From Rhodopila globiformis (GTDB taxonomy: Bacteria; Pseudomonadota; Alphaproteobacteria; Acetobacterales; Acetobacteraceae), in NCBI RefSeq assembly GCF_002937115.1, contig NZ_NHRY01000260.1, forward strand, positions 62,001-126,000: a stretch of 64,000 bases of DNA, given 5' to 3'. Numbering within the stretch: the first letter of the stretch is position 1; every line of letters starts with the position of its first letter. The position numbers and the translations under genes are program-made. The notes below the pieces were generated by a model, which ran no database searches, was not told the DNA's origin, and saw only the letters and a program-made list of their open reading frames with translations. Shown here piece after piece: positions 29,011-52,881 of this stretch.

Positions 29011-29775
29011 CTACGCCGCAACCGCTTCGATCATCAGGGTATCGAGCATGAACGATCCGTCCGGCTCGATGCTGAAATGAGAGCGCACCTCGCTCGAGGC
29101 CGCCGCCTGCAGCGCCCGGATCATGCGGATGTTCTCCTCCGGCGTGCGCATCCGCGCGGTCCAGACGGGAAAATCCATGCGCAGCCGCCAGATCCGGCAG
29201 CCGCGGACGGCAAAGCCGCAGCGTGCCAGGGCGTCCGTCCATTCCGACATTGCATAATCCCGGACATGCGAGCCGTCCCGCAGCAGTTCGACCGCCTGCA
29301 GATGGGTGTCGAGCAACGCCCGGCCCGGTGAAAAGACGTCGATGAAGACGGCTGGAGCGCCGGCCTTGATCACGCGGCGCGCCTGCCGCACGCCACCCTC
29401 GAAGTCCTGCCAGTGGTGGGCGGAAAAGCGGCAGGCGATGAAGTCGAACGTGCCGGCCTCGAACGGCAGGCGCTCGGCGCGCGCCTCGGCGGTTTCGATG
29501 TTGGCCAGTCCCCGGCCGCGGGCTGTCGCGGCGACCGCCGCCAGCATCTCGGCCGACAGGTCGCAGGCCGTGACCTTCCGCGCGTGCCGGGCCAGCAGAT
29601 AGGCGACATGGCCGCCGCCGGTGCCCAGGTCCAGCGCGTGCGCCGGAGCGGCCTGCGCGACGATCGTCTCCAGCGCCGCCAGATCCTCGCCCTGCGCATG
29701 CACTGCGCTTTCGACATAGGCTTTTGCCCGGGGCCCGAACTGGTCCGCGACGACGTCTTCATGAGCTCTCTGCAT
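29011..29775 (-). CDS. SAM-dependent class I methyltransferase
   Basis: A 254-aa methyltransferase. Motif I ALDLGTGGGHVAYLLARHA binds SAM, motif II KVTACDLSAEML supplies the acidic residue, and motif IV is FDFIACRFSAHHWQDF. The layout is UbiE/Methyltransf_11-like with a C-terminal region of about 100 residues. The substrate is unknown. It diverges from the MmyB-like regulator gene 83 bases away, and regulators of that family commonly control the adjacent divergent gene. The MFS gene follows downstream and could be co-transcribed. Confidence 0.88.
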   Translation of the reverse strand: MQRAHEDVVADQFGPRAKAYVESAVHAQGEDLAALETIVAQAAPAHALDLGTGGGHVAYLLARHARKVTACDLSAEMLAAVAATARGRGLANIETAEARAERLPFEAGTFDFIACRFSAHHWQDFEGGVRQARRVIKAGAPAVFIDVFSPGRALLDTHLQAVELLRDGSHVRDYAMSEWTDALARCGFAVRGCRIWRLRMDFPVWTARMRTPEENIRMIRALQAAASSEVRSHFSIEPDGSFMLDTLMIEAVAA

Positions 29776-29821
29776 GGATGCCTCCCCGTGGATGGCGCAA
29801 GGATGCCCGGACGCCAGCCTG

Positions 29822-29851
29822 TTACAAGAGGAACGTTTATCCTGGTATAAA
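29822..29851 (+). promoter_or_regulatory. Candidate promoter of MmyB-like regulator
   Basis: TTACAA (29822-29827) and TATAAA (29846-29851) are 18 bases apart, a good sigma-70-type arrangement. Transcription would begin at or within a base or two of the ATG at 29859, so the mRNA may be leaderless. The site lies in the short divergent region shared with the methyltransferase gene. Confidence 0.4.
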
Positions 29852-29858
29852 TGGTGCC

Positions 29859-30629
29859 ATGCTCGATCCGGACCAGAGACGCCTGCTTGGCGATTTCGTG
29901 CGGGCGCACCGCGAGCGGCTGCGTCCCGACGCCCCGGGCGGGCGGCGGCGAACGCCGGGGCTGCGGCGCGAGGAACTTGCCGCCCGCGCCGGCATCAGCG
30001 CCACCTGGTGCGCCTGGATCGAGCAGGGTCGTGACGTGCAGGCCTCACCGCAGGCGCTGGGGCGGCTGGCACGGGCGCTGTCCCTCTCCCGCGCCGAGCG
30101 CACCTATCTGTTCGAGCTGGCCGATCGGCGTGATCCGGACAGCGAGGCCGGCGAGGCGGCGGACGAGGCGCCGGCGTCGTTGCGGGAAATGGTGCAGGCG
30201 GTCGCACCCCCGGCCTATGGCCTCGACCGGTTCTGGAACGCATGCTGCTGGAATGCCGCCGCGATGCATTTGTTCCGCGGCTGGCTGGATGCCGGCGCCC
30301 AGCGCAACCTGCTGCGCTATATCTTCCTGGATGCGCAGGCACGCGCGCTGATCCCCGACTGGGAACACCGGGCGCGGCGGGTGCTGGCGGAATTCCGTGC
30401 CGATTACAGCCACAATCTGAAGGACAAACGGATGCAGTCGATGGTGGCGGCGTTGCGCGCGGAAAGCGTCTTGTTCGCCCGGGCCTGGGGCGAGCAGGGC
30501 GTGCTGGACCGCACCGGCGGCCTGCGCAGTTTCACCCACCCCGAGCTTGGCCCGCTGCGATTCCGCCAGCATACCTTTACGCCTGCGGATCGGCAGGACT
30601 TCAAGCTGGTATTGCTGATGCCGGCCTGA
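29859..30629 (+). CDS. MmyB-like helix-turn-helix regulator
   Basis: A 256-aa regulator. Residues about 5-85 are an XRE-type helix-turn-helix with the family signature GRRRTPGLRREELAARAGIS and WCAWIEQGRDVQASPQAL. Residues about 110-255 form the MmyB ligand-binding (PAS-like) domain (FWNACCWNAAAMHLF, RNLLRYIFLD, DWEHRARRVLAEFRADY, SFTHPELGPLRFRQHTF). MmyB-like proteins bind small hydrophobic ligands and usually regulate a divergent gene, here the methyltransferase. The ATG at 29859 begins the conserved domain; it has no clear ribosome site, consistent with leaderless translation. Confidence 0.9.
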   Translation: MLDPDQRRLLGDFVRAHRERLRPDAPGGRRRTPGLRREELAARAGISATWCAWIEQGRDVQASPQALGRLARALSLSRAERTYLFELADRRDPDSEAGEAADEAPASLREMVQAVAPPAYGLDRFWNACCWNAAAMHLFRGWLDAGAQRNLLRYIFLDAQARALIPDWEHRARRVLAEFRADYSHNLKDKRMQSMVAALRAESVLFARAWGEQGVLDRTGGLRSFTHPELGPLRFRQHTFTPADRQDFKLVLLMPA

Positions 30630-30716: not shown

Positions 30717-30776
30717 CCCGCCAAAACCAGTTCCTGGCACCATGACAGTCATTGCAGCAACAGGAGGAACGTCATC

Positions 30777-30983
30777 ATGCCGTGGTCCGACGCCAACGAC
30801 AGCCTTGTCGCCCCGCATCAGCAAATTCCACGCGATCCGGTCGAGCTGACGCCGGCCGAGGCGTCCCTGGTATCCGGCGGCGTAATGTGCAGCCGCGACC
30901 CGGGCGTGCAGGTCCTGGTATGGTTTGCGACGGGAGGGATGGGTATCGGCTACCGGAACGGTCCGTTCACCTGCTGGGGCTAG
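30777..30983 (+). CDS. Double-glycine-leader peptide, bacteriocin-like
   Basis: A 68-aa protein with a strong AGGAGG ribosome site. Residues 1-35 look like a double-glycine leader, ending ELTPAEASLVSGG with the hydrophobic/acidic spacing that C39 peptidase-type transporters recognise. Residues 36-68 form a small hydrophobic, Gly-rich core with cysteines at 38 and 66, near the two ends, which could form a ring, plus Trp49 and Trp67. This fits a class II-like bacteriocin or modified peptide (RiPP) precursor. No peptidase-ABC exporter, modification enzyme or immunity gene was recognised next to it, so processing must come from elsewhere. A perfect CRP-type site lies 60 bases upstream. An alternative reading is a non-secreted small protein with a fortuitous GG. 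Confidence 0.7.
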   Translation: MPWSDANDSLVAPHQQIPRDPVELTPAEASLVSGGVMCSRDPGVQVLVWFATGGMGIGYRNGPFTCWG

Positions 30984-32458: not shown

Positions 32459-32965
32459 ATGCATCGCAAGAGCTTCTCCGACATGCCCTGCCCCATCGCC
32501 CGCAGCCTGGAGCGCGTCGGCGAATGGTGGAGCATCCTGATCCTGCGCGATGCCTTCCACGGCCTGACCCAGTTCGACCAGTTCCAGAAAAGCCTGGGCA
32601 TCGCCCCCAACATCCTGGCTCGCCGGCTGAACGCCCTGGTCGAGAACGGCCTGCTCGAACGCCGCCGCTACAGCGAGCGGCCGCCGCGCGACGAATACGT
32701 GCTGACCGAGAAAAGCCAAGATTTCCGCCCGGTCCTGTGGACGCTGCTGGCCTGGGGCAACCGTCATTTCGCCCCTGAAGGCGCGAGCGTCGTCGTGGTG
32801 GACGCCGCGACCGGGATCACGGCGGACCCGGTGCTGATGGACCGGGTCAGCGGCAAGGTCATGACCCATCCCGCCTTCCGCAGCGCCCCCGGACCCGCCG
32901 CGGATCATCGGACGCGCGCCCGCCACGCCGCCCCTTCGCAGATCGCCACGGAGGCCACGCCATGA
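32459..32965 (+). CDS. HxlR-family transcriptional regulator
   Basis: A 168-aa winged-helix regulator of the HxlR/MarR-like group. Features are MPCPIARSLERVGEWWSILI with the single N-terminal Cys11 that often senses electrophiles or oxidants, the DNA-reading helix FQKSLGIAPNILARRLNALV, and the wing RRRYSERPPRDEYVLTEKSQ. A low-complexity tail (about 135-168) is less conserved. The gene overlaps the following EmrA-like gene by four bases (ATGA), so it is in one operon with the pump and an SDR. It likely represses the operon through the two palindromes just upstream until an inducer binds. Confidence 0.9.
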   Translation: MHRKSFSDMPCPIARSLERVGEWWSILILRDAFHGLTQFDQFQKSLGIAPNILARRLNALVENGLLERRRYSERPPRDEYVLTEKSQDFRPVLWTLLAWGNRHFAPEGASVVVVDAATGITADPVLMDRVSGKVMTHPAFRSAPGPAADHRTRARHAAPSQIATEATP

Positions 32966-34059
32966 GCGACCAGGTCATCACTCGCGACGTCGCGCGGCCG
33001 GCGCGCACGGCCCGCCGCCGGATGTCCAGGCAAGCGGCCTTCGCCGCCCTGGGCCTTGTCGCGCTGACGGCCGCCGGCGCGTACGGCCACGAGTGGTGGA
33101 CCATCGGCCGCTTCATCGAAAGCACCGACGACGCCTATGTCGGCGGCAACGTCACGCCGATCGCGCCGCATGTCGCCGGCTTCGTGAAACAGATCCTGGT
33201 CACCGACAATCAGTATGTGCGGGCCGGCCAGCCGTTGATCCGCCTCGACCCGGCCGACTACATCGCCGCGTTGGGCCACGCGCAGGCGGTGCTGCAGGCG
33301 CGCCAGGCGGCCATCGCCGCGCTGCAGGCCAGGCGGGTGCTGCAACGTTCGATCATCGCCGGCGCCGAGGCCGATCTGGCGGCGCGGCAGGCACAGGCGG
33401 TTTTCACCGCGCAGGAGGCCGAACGCTACCGCTCGCTGGCCGTCACCGCCGCCGGTTCTCGCCAGGATGCGCAGAAGGCACTGGCCAGCGACAAGGCGGC
33501 CCGGGCCGGCGTGCTGGCATCGCAGGCGGCGATCGCGGCAGCGAACGAGCAACTTGCGGTGCTGGACGCTGAAACCATCGCCGCACAGGCGGACCTCCAC
33601 CAGGCGCAGGCGGATGTGCGCACCGCGCAGCTCAACCTGGGCTATACCGAGATCGTCGCCCCGGTATCCGGTTACGTCGGAAACCGTTACGCCCAGGTCG
33701 GCGCTTACGTTGCAGCCGGTACGAACCTGCTGTCGGTGGTGCCCGCGACCGGCCTGTGGGTGGATGCCAACTTCAAGGAAGACCAGCTTGGCCACATGAA
33801 GCCGGGCGACCCGGCAACGATCGTCGCCGACGTGCTGCCGGGCCGGACGTTCCAGGGCCATGTCGTCAGCCTGTCTCCGGCCACCGGCGCGGTGTTCAGC
33901 GTGATCCCGCCGCAGAACGCCACCGGCAACTTCACGAAGATCGTGCAGCGCGTGCCGGTGCGCATCGCCTTGGACGGCGACGGCCAGGAACTCGGGCTGC
34001 TGCGGGCCGGTCTGTCCACGACCGCCAGCGTCAACACGAAGGCGGAGCCCGGGCCATGA
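32962..34059 (+). CDS. HlyD/EmrA-like membrane fusion protein
   Basis: A 365-aa periplasmic adaptor subunit. One N-terminal membrane helix (about 22-42), then a lipoyl-like half (DDAYVGGNVTPIAPHVAGFV), a long coiled-coil hairpin about 95-210 rich in Ala/Gln, and the second lipoyl half and beta-barrel (GYTEIVAPVSGYVGNRYAQV, VDANFKEDQLGHMKPGDPAT). It would bridge the MFS pump to an outer-membrane channel, which is not encoded here. It is coupled to the regulator upstream and to the pump downstream by four-base overlaps. Confidence 0.93.
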   Translation: MSDQVITRDVARPARTARRRMSRQAAFAALGLVALTAAGAYGHEWWTIGRFIESTDDAYVGGNVTPIAPHVAGFVKQILVTDNQYVRAGQPLIRLDPADYIAALGHAQAVLQARQAAIAALQARRVLQRSIIAGAEADLAARQAQAVFTAQEAERYRSLAVTAAGSRQDAQKALASDKAARAGVLASQAAIAAANEQLAVLDAETIAAQADLHQAQADVRTAQLNLGYTEIVAPVSGYVGNRYAQVGAYVAAGTNLLSVVPATGLWVDANFKEDQLGHMKPGDPATIVADVLPGRTFQGHVVSLSPATGAVFSVIPPQNATGNFTKIVQRVPVRIALDGDGQELGLLRAGLSTTASVNTKAEPGP

Positions 34060-35603
34060 GCAGCGCGGCACGCGGCGTCCTGCCGTTCGCGGTGATGTGC
34101 TTCGGCATGTTCATCGCCCTGCTGGACATCCAGATCGTTGCGTCCTCATTGGCCGACATCGGCGGCGGGCTGTCGGCGGCGCAGGACGAGATCAGCTGGG
34201 TGCAGACGGCGTACCTGATCGCCGAGATCTGCATAATCCCACTGTCCGGCTGGCTGACGCGGGTGTTCTCCACGCGCTGGCTGTTCACCGCCTCGGCCCT
34301 GGGCTTCACCCTGTCCAGCGTGCTGTGCGGCATGGCGTGGGACATCGACAGCATGATCCTGTTCCGCGCCTTGCAGGGGATGCTGGGCGCGTCGATGATC
34401 CCCACGGTCTTTACTTCATCGTTCCATTACTTCGAGGGCCACCGGCGGGTCTATGCCGCGGCGGTGGTCGGCACGATCGCCTCGATCGCGCCCAGCCTGG
34501 GGCCGGTCATCGGTGGCTGGATCACCGACACGCTGGACTGGCGCTGGCTGTTCTACATCAACCTGGTTCCCGGCTTCCTGGTCACCATCGGCGTCGCCGC
34601 CCTGGTGGACATCGACAAGCCGGACCTGCGGCTGCTGAAGGGCGCCGACTATCTCGGCATCGCCCTGATGGCCGTCGCGCTGGGCACCCTGGAATACGTG
34701 CTGGAGGAAGGCGCCCGCTGGAACTGGCTCAGCGACCACACGATCCGCAACTGCGCGGTCATGTCCGCGGTCGCCGGCATCCTGTTCGTCATCCGCAGCC
34801 TGACCTTTGCGCAGCCCGTGGTGGACCTGCGCGCGCTGGGCAACCGCAACTTCCTGCTGGGCTGCATCCTGTCGTTCGTCACCGGCATCGGCATGTTCGC
34901 GACGATCTACCTGACGCCGCTGTTCCTGGGCTATGTGCGTGGGTTCTCCGCCTGGCAGACCGGCGTGGCGGTGTTTTCCACCGGCGTGGCCTCGATCGTC
35001 GGCGTGCCGGTCTATGTCATGCTGGGCAAGCGCGTCGACCTGCGCTGGCTGATGCTGTTCGGCCTGGCCAGCTTCGGCCTGTCGATGTGGAGCTTTACGT
35101 TCATCACCAACGACTGGGGCGGCGACCAGTTGCTGATTCCGCAGATCCTGCGCGGGTTCCCGCAGGTGTTCGCCGTCGCGCCCGCGGTGACGCTGGGCCT
35201 GGGCAGCCTGTCGCCGGCGCGGCTGAAATATGCCAGCGGCCTGTTCAACATGATGCGCAACCTGGGTGGCGCGGTCGGCATTGCGGTGTGCGGCGCGGTG
35301 CTGAACGACCAGACGAACCTGCACTTCCTGAACATTGCCTCCACCCTGACGCCCGCCAATGCGGCGATGAACGATCTGCTGGCGGGGCTGGGCGCGCGAT
35401 TGACCGATGTGCTTGGTTCCGTGCCGGCCGGCCATCTGGCGGCGCTGGAGCAGTTGCGGGCCATCGCCTACCGCGAAGCCGCGACCATGGCTTATGCCGA
35501 CGCCTTCCGCACCATCATGCTCGCCTTCCTTGTCACCACGCCGCTGGCACTGCTGTTGCGCAGGGTCAGCCCGCCGAAGACGGCCGCGGCCGACGCGCAC
35601 TGA
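34056..35603 (+). CDS. DHA2-family MFS drug exporter, EmrB-like
   Basis: A 515-aa, 14-helix major facilitator of the EmrB/QacA group. Typical motifs are MFIALLDIQIVASSLADIGG in helix 1, LSGWLTRVFSTRWLF (motif A-like) and GVLPFAVMCFGM at the start. Proton-driven export of hydrophobic compounds is the expected role. The start overlaps the adaptor's stop by four bases. The operon order regulator-adaptor-pump-SDR suggests an inducible resistance unit, with the SDR possibly modifying the same toxic compound. Confidence 0.94.
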   Translation: MSSAARGVLPFAVMCFGMFIALLDIQIVASSLADIGGGLSAAQDEISWVQTAYLIAEICIIPLSGWLTRVFSTRWLFTASALGFTLSSVLCGMAWDIDSMILFRALQGMLGASMIPTVFTSSFHYFEGHRRVYAAAVVGTIASIAPSLGPVIGGWITDTLDWRWLFYINLVPGFLVTIGVAALVDIDKPDLRLLKGADYLGIALMAVALGTLEYVLEEGARWNWLSDHTIRNCAVMSAVAGILFVIRSLTFAQPVVDLRALGNRNFLLGCILSFVTGIGMFATIYLTPLFLGYVRGFSAWQTGVAVFSTGVASIVGVPVYVMLGKRVDLRWLMLFGLASFGLSMWSFTFITNDWGGDQLLIPQILRGFPQVFAVAPAVTLGLGSLSPARLKYASGLFNMMRNLGGAVGIAVCGAVLNDQTNLHFLNIASTLTPANAAMNDLLAGLGARLTDVLGSVPAGHLAALEQLRAIAYREAATMAYADAFRTIMLAFLVTTPLALLLRRVSPPKTAAADAH

Positions 35604-35635
35604 TTTCGAAGCTTACTTTCAGGGAGAGACTGATC

Positions 35636-36439
35636 ATGCAATCTTCGTTTCGTACCGTCCTGATTACCGGCGCCTCCACCGGCATTGGCGCGACGTACGC
35701 CGATCGTTTCGCCCGGCGTGGCCACGGGCTTGTGCTGGTGGCGCGCGACCAGGGGCGCCTGGAGACTCTTGCCGCCCGGCTGCGTGACGATTACCGCGTT
35801 CCCGTTGACGTGGTCGCCGCCGATCTGACCAGGGCCGGGGACCTGGGCCGTGTGGAGACGCGGCTGCGGCAGGACGCGGAAATCGGCATCCTGGTGAACA
35901 ACGCCGGGGCGGCGGTGGGCGGCGGGTTCGCCAGTCCTGACCTGGATGCGCTGGAGCGGCTTGTTGACCTCAACGTCACCAGCCTTATGCGCCTGACCGG
36001 CGCGGTGGTGCCGCGTTTCCTGGCGGAGGGCGGCGGCGCGATCATCAACCTGACGTCGGTGCTCGCCGTCGCGCCCGAACTGATGCCCGGGATCTACCCG
36101 GCGACGAAGGCGTTCGTGCTGACCTTTTCCCAGTCGCTGCAATCCGAACTGGGGCCAAGCGGCATTTATGTGCAGGCCGTGCTGCCGGCGGCGACCCGGA
36201 CCGAGATCTGGGAACGGTCCGGCATGGATCCGAATGCCTTTCCGGCCATGATGGACGTCGGCGAGCTAGTCGATGCCGCCCTGGTCGGTTTCGATCGCAA
36301 GGAGACGATTACCATCCCACCGCTGCCTGACGAGAACCAGTGGACGCAGTTCACCGCCGCGCGCCAGGCCATGCTGCCGAACTTCCGGCAGACGCACCCC
36401 GCCGACCGCTACCTGGATGGCGCCGCCGCGGGACGGTAG
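35636..36439 (+). CDS. Short-chain dehydrogenase/reductase
   Basis: A 267-aa classical SDR. The cofactor motif is TGASTGIG (residues 11-18), NNAGAAVGG follows in strand 4, the catalytic Ser is in NLTSVLAVAP and the YxxxK pair in YPATKAF. The Tyr-Pro-Ala-Thr-Lys motif and the sequence after it resemble the oxidoreductase group named for DltE/YqjQ. NADP preference is suggested by Arg residues after the second strand (ARDQGRLE). It lies 32 bases after the pump gene with its own GGGAGAG ribosome site, so it is the last gene of the HxlR-controlled operon. Confidence 0.92.
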   Translation: MQSSFRTVLITGASTGIGATYADRFARRGHGLVLVARDQGRLETLAARLRDDYRVPVDVVAADLTRAGDLGRVETRLRQDAEIGILVNNAGAAVGGGFASPDLDALERLVDLNVTSLMRLTGAVVPRFLAEGGGAIINLTSVLAVAPELMPGIYPATKAFVLTFSQSLQSELGPSGIYVQAVLPAATRTEIWERSGMDPNAFPAMMDVGELVDAALVGFDRKETITIPPLPDENQWTQFTAARQAMLPNFRQTHPADRYLDGAAAGR

Positions 36440-49919: not shown

Positions 49920-50230
49920 CCCGTCATGGCCCGGAGAAGTCGCATCGGCGCTGACTTGGAGGGACAGGGCCGGGTCCTTGCCCTATCGTCATGGCCGGGC
50001 GTGTCCCGGCCATCCACCCCCCCACCGTTGAAGCGCAGATGGCCGGGACACGCCCAGCCATGACGGTGAGAGAACGGCCGCGGCGCCAAATCGTTCTCCG
50101 GCCGTCGTCTTATCCTGATACGCATGGTGACACGCCCGGCCATGACGATAGCGCGACGACCCTGCCCTGTTCCCCCTGAAGTTAGCGCCGATGCAGACAA
50201 GCCGGGCCATGACGGTGAGGGAACGGCCGC
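49920..50230. repeat. Interspersed palindromic repeat block, copy D
   Basis: Contains the arms GGCCGGGCGTGTCCCGGCC at about 49993-50011 and the reverse complement at about 50041-50060 with the C-rich/GTTGAAGCGCAG loop shared with copy A, the GAGAGAACGGCCGCGGCGCC flank, and further half-arms at about 50132-50145 and 50203-50215. It fills the space between the convergent FAD oxidoreductase and flippase genes. Confidence 0.85.
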
Positions 50231-50248
50231 TTCCCATGCAGGCCGGTG

Positions 50249-51499
50249 TCACAACGCCGTCGCGCGGATGCGGAAACCGCCGGTCAGCGGCCGCAGCAGG
50301 CCGACGCCCAGCGCCTGCGCGTTCGCCCACAGCGCATAGGGGCTGACCAGAACCTGGCCGACGGTCCAGATCATCACCGCCTGCCAGGAATCGCCGGGCC
50401 GCAGCACCACCACCCCCAGGCAGGCGGCCACCATCGCGGCGAGGTTGGCATACAGGGTGAAGCGCACCTGGCCGAGCGCGACCAGGGCGACCCCACCGGG
50501 AAACATCAGCGTGGACAGCGCCATCAGTCCCACCAGCGGCAGGGCCGCCTGCCCGGCCGCTCCCCAGCCGGGTCCCATCAGCAGCCCGACCCCGCGCTCC
50601 AGGCCCAGGGCCAGCAACAGGCAAAGCGGCAGCACGAGGGCAGCGGAAAACCGCACCCAGTGGTCCACCTGCGCCAGCAGCTTCGGCTGCGCCGTCTGGT
50701 GCTCGGCCAAAGCCGGCAGCATCAGCCGCCACAGCGCGGAGAACACCAGCTCGCGCACCGTATCGACCAGGCGGAACGCCAGGTGCACCTGCCCCAGCAC
50801 CGCCGCCCCTGCGCTGCCGCCAATCAGCACGGCGAACAGCCGGTAGCGCGCGATCAGCACCAGGGTGGAGGCCGTCAGCGGCATCCCCACCGCCAGCAGC
50901 GACCGCACCGTCGCGCCCTCGAAGCAGAGCGCCGGAAGCCAGCCGCGGCTGCCCAGCAGCACCAGCGCGCCGCAAGCCGAGGTGACCGCCTGCTGCACCA
51001 CCAGCGCCCAGGCCCCCGCGCCGGCCAGCGCGGCCGAGACCCCGACGGCGGTGCCCACACCCTGGCCGAGGATGGTGCGCAGCGCCAGGCGGGCATAGGC
51101 GCGCTCGCGGGTCAGCATGCCCTGGACGACCCCACCGGCGCCGACCAGCGGCAGCGCCGCCGCCAGCACCAGCGTCATCGGCACCAGCCGCCCGTCATGC
51201 AGCAGCCGCGCGAGGCCCCAGCCGCTCGCCGCCTGCAGCAGCATCGCCACAAAGCCGACCGACAGCGAGGCCCAGAAGGCGCTGGAGAGCATCCGGTCAT
51301 TGACCGCCAGCCGCTGCACCAGGGCGTCGGCGAACAGCCCGTTGACCGCCACCCAGAACACCACGTGTACCGCGGTCGCCGCGGCACCGATGCCCAGTTC
51401 CGCCGGGCCGATCAGGCGCGCCACGACGAATGATGCGATGAAAGACAGGGTGGCGGCGACCAGCGCCTCCAGGCCCGACCACAGGGCGTTGCGCCTCAT
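50249..51499 (-). CDS. Wzx-like oligosaccharide flippase
   Basis: A 416-aa polytopic protein of the MOP/polysaccharide-exporter superfamily. Helices are regularly spaced, with N-terminal SGLEALVAATLSFIASFVVA, RLIGPAELGIGAAATAVHVV, then LLGSRGWLPALCFEG in the middle and RFRLVD-like motifs. It should move lipid-linked sugar repeats across the inner membrane. The start overlaps the previous membrane-protein gene by four bases. It is the last gene in the wzc-galE operon. Confidence 0.87.
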   Translation of the reverse strand: MRRNALWSGLEALVAATLSFIASFVVARLIGPAELGIGAAATAVHVVFWVAVNGLFADALVQRLAVNDRMLSSAFWASLSVGFVAMLLQAASGWGLARLLHDGRLVPMTLVLAAALPLVGAGGVVQGMLTRERAYARLALRTILGQGVGTAVGVSAALAGAGAWALVVQQAVTSACGALVLLGSRGWLPALCFEGATVRSLLAVGMPLTASTLVLIARYRLFAVLIGGSAGAAVLGQVHLAFRLVDTVRELVFSALWRLMLPALAEHQTAQPKLLAQVDHWVRFSAALVLPLCLLLALGLERGVGLLMGPGWGAAGQAALPLVGLMALSTLMFPGGVALVALGQVRFTLYANLAAMVAACLGVVVLRPGDSWQAVMIWTVGQVLVSPYALWANAQALGVGLLRPLTGGFRIRATAL

Positions 51500-52881
51500 G
51501 GCGGGCGGCGCAGCGACAGAAGGGAGACGGCGGCAACAAACGGCGGCAGCCACATGACCCGGGCCTGGTAGCGGTCATGCGGGCCGGACAGGGCGCCGGT
51601 GATTGCGGCGCCGACGGGCAGCACGGACAGCACAGCAGCCAGGAAGCCGGCACAGGCCGCGCGGCGGCGTAGCGCCACGGGCAGCAGCAGGAGGCAGGCG
51701 GCGACGCCGGCCAGGGCGGCGGCGCGGTGGACCTTCGCCAGCACCGGCGGGACGGCCAGTCGCCCGCGCTGCTGCCGCGCGGTGGCATAGGCGGCACGCT
51801 CGGCCGGCGGAAAATCGCGCGCGATCCAGGGCGTGACCTGGATCGGCCAGGGTCCCAGGCCGTCGCCGCTGGCGAACCGGGCCAGTTGCGCCAGCGTGTT
51901 CGCCAGCGCCGCCCGCGCCACGCCGGCCGCATCGGCGGCGATAGTGGCCGCAATGATGGCGCCGGCCTCCCGCGAGACCGCTTTCGGGCCGCCGGCCAGA
52001 TACAGGGGGCTATCCGGCTCCCAAAGAAAATCGTCGGATGTTGGCGGCATCCGGTCGAGGAACCCGCACAATCGCCAACCCGCTGCCGGGCAATCGCGTC
52101 GCAGGACTGCAAGGCCCGGCCCGTCATACAGAACGCGGGCAAGCAGGAAGACATTGCCGAACGGCGCTATGGCGAAGCGTCCGTGCGCGGCGAGGTTCAC
52201 TGCGCAAAGGGCAAGGATCGCCAGGCCGACGGGCAACAGAGTCAGGTGCCAGATCCGCCGCCCGGCCATCCGCGCTTCAACGGTGGGGGGCGGATGGCCA
52301 GGATTCCGCCCGGCGGTGGTGACGGGCCGCCACGGCGGCACCACCCGCCTCAGGACCAGCAGCAAACCGGCCAGCGTGGCCGCCAGCGGCAGGCTCGACA
52401 ACTGGCAGGCGATCATGAACGACGCCAGTCCGGCCAGGGTCACCCGCTCCCACCGGCGCAACCGCTCGGGCACCAGGGCCAGCAGGCACAGCGCCAGGAC
52501 CAGCAGCGGCGTAAACACGTCGGGCATCAGCGTGCAGGCCAGCCACGGCAGCCAGGTTCCCAGAGACACGGCCGCCACCAGCGCCAGGAACACCGTCTCG
52601 GACAACCCCGGCGCAAGGGCGCGGCAGGCCAGCCGCAGGACCCACGCCGCCAGCAGCGCCTGGACGACAATTACCGGCCAGGTCGTCACCGTCGCGTGCA
52701 GCGGCAGCATGAACAAACTGTAGAAGACCGGCCGATCCCAGCCGGCGTAGCGGTGAATGGCCTGCGAGAGGTAGGTGCCGGTGTCGGCGAACACGATCGG
52801 GTAGCCGTTCCACAGTGCCGGCCACAGCAGCATCGCCGCCGCGGCCGGCACGGACAGAACGGCCGCCCGGTCAGTCGCCAT
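51496..52881 (-). CDS. Polytopic membrane protein of EPS operon
   Basis: A 461-aa hydrophobic protein with about nine to eleven membrane helices (start MATDRAAVLSVPAAAAMLLW). The first loop has NGYPIVFADTGTYLSQAIHR, and similar uncharacterised proteins occur in exopolysaccharide clusters; a GT-C-like glycosyltransferase or polymerase function is possible but unproved. Residues about 188-208 (GHPPPTVEARMAG) come from an interspersed DNA repeat lying in frame between two helices, in a likely loop. The start at 52881 overlaps the galE stop by 11 bases; the stop overlaps the flippase start. The family is not identified with confidence. Confidence 0.72.
   Translation of the reverse strand: MATDRAAVLSVPAAAAMLLWPALWNGYPIVFADTGTYLSQAIHRYAGWDRPVFYSLFMLPLHATVTTWPVIVVQALLAAWVLRLACRALAPGLSETVFLALVAAVSLGTWLPWLACTLMPDVFTPLLVLALCLLALVPERLRRWERVTLAGLASFMIACQLSSLPLAATLAGLLLVLRRVVPPWRPVTTAGRNPGHPPPTVEARMAGRRIWHLTLLPVGLAILALCAVNLAAHGRFAIAPFGNVFLLARVLYDGPGLAVLRRDCPAAGWRLCGFLDRMPPTSDDFLWEPDSPLYLAGGPKAVSREAGAIIAATIAADAAGVARAALANTLAQLARFASGDGLGPWPIQVTPWIARDFPPAERAAYATARQQRGRLAVPPVLAKVHRAAALAGVAACLLLLPVALRRRAACAGFLAAVLSVLPVGAAITGALSGPHDRYQARVMWLPPFVAAVSLLSLRRPP
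52258..52320. repeat. Palindromic repeat inside a coding sequence, copy E
   Basis: The segment with CCGGCCATCCGCGCTTCAAC and GGTGGGGGGCGGATGGCC matches the arm-loop-arm core of the interspersed repeat near 61.15 kb, with some divergence in the outer arms. It lies in frame inside the EPS membrane-protein gene and contributes about 20 residues without breaking the reading frame. Confidence 0.75.

Follow-up and report, generated by a model that had tools for sequence, protein, structure and literature searches.

The gene under study lies on the plus strand at positions 30777-30983 of the window, that is, the whole stretch of 64,000 nucleotides of the Rhodopila globiformis genome that was analysed. 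An SD sequence, AGGAGG (30762..30767, plus strand), can be read directly 9 nt 5' of the ATG, and the 68-aa open reading frame that follows translates into the leader MPWSDANDSLVAPHQQIPRDPVELTPAEASLVSGG and the core VMCSRDPGVQVLVWFATGGMGIGYRNGPFTCWG, after which comes a TAG stop codon (30981..30983). The leader comprises residues 1-35 (30777..30881) and ends in ELTPAEASLVSGG, with C39 cleavage predicted to fall after Gly35; the core comprises residues 36-68 (33 aa, 30882..30980). Cys3, Cys31, Trp14 and Trp32 are the marked residues of the core, which in its disulfide form has a computed monoisotopic mass of 3558.65 (3.56 kDa), against 3560.66 when reduced, and a computed net charge of about +0.7 at pH 7. 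A first-pass annotation of this DNA had reported a 68-aa frame with AGGAGG, a leader, a 33-aa core with cysteines at positions 3 and 31 and two tryptophans, and translation bears out each of these elements as well as the precursor architecture that was read from them, a leader ending in ELTPAEASLVSGG joined to a two-cysteine core.

The GC content of the frame at codon positions 1, 2 and 3 is 0.65, 0.54 and 0.81. An alternative GTG start is also open and would give a 96-aa form; in our judgement the ATG with its SD sequence is the better start. No match to a sigma-70-like promoter or to a terminator was found at the peptide gene, and a single-sequence AlphaFold2 model was uninformative (pLDDT 48.8).

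Directly upstream on the plus strand is an XRE/MmyB-like regulator (HTH_31 and MLTR_LBD domains by Pfam, 29859..30629), and convergent to the peptide gene downstream, on the minus strand, is a gene of the PEBP family (phosphatidylethanolamine-binding protein, PF01161, 31009..31476). The further upstream neighbours were assigned by Pfam to a methyltransferase of the generic Methyltransf_11/UbiE type (29011-29775, 1 kb upstream), an MFS_3 transporter and a MetE-like protein, and the further downstream neighbours to PGA_cap, an HxlR regulator, an HlyD/MFS efflux pair and an SDR. None of the ten neighbours scanned with Pfam is a C39 exporter or a RiPP enzyme. Nor was an immunity gene recognised among them beside the peptide, whose flanks are the regulator and the PEBP-family protein; immunity proteins are described in PMC10233263 as having no conserved sequence features. 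The first-pass statement that no transporter or modification gene lies nearby thus stands for C39 exporters and RiPP enzymes and falls for transporters in general, since MFS transporters and the HlyD/MFS pair are within about 5 kb. At 32459-36439 the HxlR-type regulator is followed by the HlyD/MFS efflux pair and the SDR in the layout of an ordinary efflux operon. Elsewhere in the window, positions 50001-52000 have a strong AT skew (0.337) and a high GC content (0.732) compared with the rest.

The methyltransferase and regulator genes (window 29026-30624) recur as a block in the congener G002, with 73% DNA identity; past the block that contig has another 346 nt, in which there is no peptide. 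Of the 32 other congeners, only 2 have a match to the PEBP gene at E 1e-20, with about 35% identity. The absence of the peptide from the remaining 346 nt in G002 and the rarity of the PEBP gene among congeners together place the peptide within a variable stretch.

The leader and family models

The surroundings of C39 exporters were taken from 15 of 31 C39-positive genomes and scanned for GG-leader ORFs. Of the 27 hits of this loose scan some 15 looked genuine by eye, and 12 of these leaders, all from other genomes, were picked by eye for a profile (PSSM) from which the window peptide was left out. The window leader scores 25.4 on this profile, and the runner-up ORF in the window scores 17.1. 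The highest score was 15.9 in 20 order-1 Markov sequences of 64 kb and 16.8 in 112 order-2 Markov sequences (7.2 Mb, one genome length), while the 12 training leaders score 19.9-38.2 when each is left out in turn. Because 25.4 exceeds the random maxima and falls inside the range of the training leaders, the window leader groups with other GG leaders; it is of the double-glycine type, beyond chance.

More specifically, the leader has Val at -4, Glu at -8, Leu at -12 and the GG pair, which is the pattern of hydrophobic residues at -4 and -12 with an acidic residue at -8. From EL on, and with the exception of position -7, it fits the consensus M(R/K)ELX3E(I/L)X2(I/V)XG(G/A) given for Gram-negative leaders in PMC3140520. 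At -7 it has Ala, as against Leu in 12 of 12 training leaders, and the scan had demanded L, I, V, M or F there. PMC6363468 describes the motif Leu(-12)x3Glu(-8)Leu(-7) and the importance of Leu-7 in C39 leaders, and reports for another C39 substrate that Lys or Asp at -7 strongly impairs cleavage. A hidden Markov model (A2) built from these 12 leaders gave no match to the window peptide at E <=10; it also missed a GG-leader ORF of G083 that has a profile score of 22.1.

The lone family match of the peptide is to Pfam PF10439, Bacteriocin_IIc, which covers class II bacteriocins with a double-glycine leader. Residues 24-60 match its profile weakly (E 0.008), and the 16.6 bits lie below the curated threshold of 27.1. 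Such sub-threshold matches are common, being present in 8 of 14 control genomes, and none of the 33 genomes of the genus, this one included, has a Bacteriocin_IIc match above the cut-off. The peptide reaches no Pfam or NCBIfam cut-off, matches no microcin family and leaves TIGR01847 (bacteriocin_sig) unmatched, and the cores alone match nothing in Pfam at E 10. A likeness of WxATGG to the tail of pediocin was considered and dropped because the cores have no Pfam match at that level. The first-pass proposal of a peptide of undescribed type therefore divides: it stands for the core, a credible one for which the libraries searched, Pfam and NCBIfam, have no family match above a cut-off, and it does not extend to the kind of peptide, as GG-leader peptides are already a known class and the leader is of that known kind.

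Distribution of the core

Homologues were sought in overlapping sets of 145 relatives and of 397 family, 385 class and 395 order genomes, the order-level search being made with a two-sequence model that included the G083 core and matched G083 itself. The sole clear relative of the core is in G083 (locus L002), another Acetobacteraceae genome (56% identity, E 5.3e-9), so that a homologue exists among relatives, in one genome only. The 32 other congeners gave no match to the peptide better than E 0.0078.

The two cores are identical at 20 of 34 aligned residues (GG counted in), and common to both are the two cysteines, CSRDP, W, ATG and NGxFxCWG. Synonymous codon differences occur at 9 of the 20 identical residues. 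The synonymous/non-synonymous comparison of the core pair indicates constraint (pN 0.26, below pS 0.68), and random placement of the same substitutions kept as many residues in 3 of 20,000 trials, a test somewhat biased toward conserved residues in that the G083 pair was picked by protein search. From this pair, the core looks selected at the protein level. Upstream of the G083 copy, no frame of the 240 nt scores above 3.3, as against 19.5 for the window leader over the same 14 columns, and the upstream DNA of the two loci aligns no better than shuffled sequence (14.0 against a shuffle mean of 14.3). Because the G083 copy lacks a recognisable leader, no second full-length precursor was seen, and the missing leader is the main point against a living family.

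Weaker matches were judged to be chance. Those in G040, G239 and G325 (E 0.001-0.003, family set) were of partial length, had internal stops or lay in long host frames; a C39 exporter was searched for in G239 and G325, and none was found. Twelve more genomes in the class set (E 0.003-0.05) were set aside on the same kinds of evidence, as were G811 and G426 in the order set, which were the only weak matches inspected, and those briefly. Peptide patterns recovered 135 stretches from assembled-genome contigs, none of which was confirmed, and the exact pattern NGxFxCWG-stop occurred at 77 loci there, with the core in 1, again G083. Viral contigs yielded 21 stretches, none confirmed; 4 plasmid and 5 phage records came up, at best with E 0.3, and the PDB gave one chain taken as chance (E 1.8). 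Literature searches, made by topic rather than by sequence text, returned no title on the peptide among the matches listed.

A single C39 exporter and other candidate precursors

The first-pass annotation had pointed to a C39-type exporter as something to look for elsewhere in the genome, whose draft assembly has 278 contigs and is 98.55% complete. One was found, on another contig (C187): the only Peptidase_C39 (PF03412) match above the cut-off, with no other at E <=1, belongs to a 729-aa exporter with ABC_membrane and ABC_tran domains. Its neighbours include an adjacent HlyD_3 adaptor, an AraC-type regulator and a protein that resembles a hydrolase without reaching the Pfam cut-off, and OEP outer-membrane factors are present in the genome. 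The spacing of exporter residues Cys26, His99 and Asp115 equals that of the CvaB triad, whose catalytic residues are given in PMC9746304 as Cys32, His105 and Asp121. The best NCBIfam model for the exporter is NHLM_micro_ABC1, at 506.8 bits under a cut-off of 853.3. In the 19 kb around it the loose scan gave 2 hits, both judged to be non-precursors, and the maximum profile score was 9.6. The C39 domain has a patchy distribution among relatives, being present in 31 of 118 genomes (this one included). G083 also has a C39 exporter, and some 2 kb upstream of it are GG-leader ORFs scoring 22.1 and 13.0.

Six further candidate GG precursors (L137-L141) occur on five contigs (C124:6158, C277:38003, C254:587 and 1086, C250:52385, C48:10478), all away from the contig of the single C39 exporter. 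Their leader-model E values run from 4e-4 to 0.23, the last ones being weak, and their profile scores from 26.9 to 35.1; the C124 candidate passes the NCBIfam model TIGR01847 bacteriocin_sig (17.0 against a cut-off of 15.7). Their leaders are of the same type as that of the window peptide, whereas their cores are unrelated by eye, mostly Gly- or Pro-rich, and none has a two-cysteine loop. Because the C39 exporter and its HlyD partner lie elsewhere and the six precursors are scattered, the window peptide is probably a substrate in trans.

Interpretation and comparison with known systems

The gene is best explained as a solitary double-glycine precursor that would be exported in trans. The C39 exporter would cut after Gly35, and the 33-residue core would leave through the HlyD-type partner and a TolC-like pore. 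A Cys3-Cys31 disulfide, probably formed outside the cytoplasm, would close nearly the whole peptide and give a hydrophobic, Gly-rich, near-neutral loop. For its role, antagonism of related bacteria in the manner of a bacteriocin or microcin seems most likely, with peptide signalling second. The probability of a secreted, C39-processed peptide is put at roughly two in three; the antagonistic activity is proposed more tentatively, at somewhat less than even odds. The sequences themselves show a leader that is statistically distinct, a core that has been under purifying selection, and genes for exporter, adaptor and outer-membrane factors; we infer that the peptide is expressed, is exported in trans, holds a disulfide and acts as an antagonist. 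A new bacteriocin-like peptide is plausible.

The same export would equally serve a pheromone, a secreted signal sensed by the kin of the producer and lacking antimicrobial action. That reading gains from the regulator gene directly upstream and from the fact that an immunity-type gene was not recognised alongside the peptide, and Dirix et al. in 2004 reportedly proposed GG peptides of Gram-negative bacteria as signals as well as bacteriocins, which counts in its favour. However, the regulator belongs to the MmyB-like MLTR_LBD type, and in G002 its block is found with no peptide in the remaining 346 nt. The ten scanned neighbours include neither a histidine kinase nor a peptide receptor, and the distribution of the peptide is narrow and patchy; signalling seems unlikely. 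The leader and the exporter could also belong to an enzymatically modified precursor (RiPP) whose two cysteines would carry, for instance, a thioether or an azoline in place of a plain disulfide. C39 leaders are common to RiPP precursors too (PMC6363468), the best NCBIfam model of the exporter, below its cut-off, is NHLM_micro_ABC1, and 1 kb upstream there is a methyltransferase gene (29011-29775). None of the ten Pfam-scanned neighbours, however, has a lanthionine synthetase, radical SAM, YcaO or ATP-grasp domain, and the methyltransferase is generic and kept in G002 without the peptide; modification of this kind is improbable.

Two readings would deny the gene a present function. If it were a decaying or unexpressed remnant, with the window and G083 copies both relics, the missing G083 leader, the Ala at -7, the lack of a good match in the 32 other congeners and the absence of a promoter-like match would all be expected; yet the window copy is intact, with start, SD sequence, leader and core in a single frame, and 20 of 34 core residues have been kept through many synonymous changes, so that decay seems distinctly unlikely. 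So short a frame could conceivably have arisen by chance in GC-rich intergenic DNA and resemble a precursor by accident, and as 83 ORFs of >=40 aa were listed in 10 kb here, the ORF as such means little. That reading is made highly improbable by a leader score above that of a genome-equivalent of random sequence and by an independent core homologue with protein-level constraint.

The preferred reading, an exported double-glycine peptide, can be set beside two described systems. Class IIa microcins (microcin V type; CvaA/CvaB/TolC) resemble it in the GG leader, the C39 ABC exporter with an HlyD-type adaptor, and a plain peptide with a possible disulfide; the HlyD-type adaptor and the outer-membrane factor of class II microcin systems are both in this genome. 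Compared by description and by Pfam and NCBIfam only, they also differ from it. PMC10233263 describes microcins as about 5-10 kDa in size, with an immunity gene typically immediately adjacent, whereas the core here is 3.56 kDa and no such gene was recognised. Several features count against a classical class II microcin: the lack of a recognised immunity gene, the absence of a nearby C39 exporter, the small size, the Ala at -7 and the very narrow distribution. One class of GG-peptide bacteriocins from Bacteroides is likewise described in PMC10233263 as having no immunity protein, a class that we take to be the bacteroidetocins. Compared by description, bacteroidetocins (proposed class IIf) share a short Cys-containing core after a GG leader in a Gram-negative organism. 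As described in PMC6671954, they have 42-aa cores, four cysteines in the main members and at least two in the wider set, and leaders of 15-16 aa, and in Bacteroidetes their genes accompany those for an exporter, a TM protein and a thiol oxidoreductase; an exporter and a thiol oxidoreductase of that type are absent from the ten scanned neighbours of the window peptide.

Cluster-based mining easily overlooks solitary GG precursors, since they are far away from any exporter or immunity gene. If the peptide is exported in trans, Acetobacteraceae would hold a dispersed set of secreted peptides, and this one, with 33 residues and two cysteines, would be simple to synthesise for testing. A wider and more doubtful proposal is of a dispersed repertoire, in which seven unlinked or loosely linked solitary genes with one leader type and unrelated cores would share the single unlinked C39 exporter, and in which the CSRDP...CWG core would represent a new family of minimal disulfide-looped antagonists that has no immunity gene of its own and is acquired and lost as a cassette.

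Some further resemblances among GG-leader ORFs were observed in passing. The core start LNPQPLPP is common to peptides of this genome (L138, 4881-5138) and of the congener G026 (L099, 12720-12523), and the motif occurs in none of the papers whose text was searched. By eye, the leaders and Pro-rich tails of L139 1020-1229 (this genome) and L225 4056-4241 (G083) are alike, the latter ORF lying about 2 kb from the C39 exporter of G083. In the congener G020, three tandem GG-leader ORFs (L096, 2319-3343) stand near a C39 exporter, and two of their cores are Met/Gly-rich.
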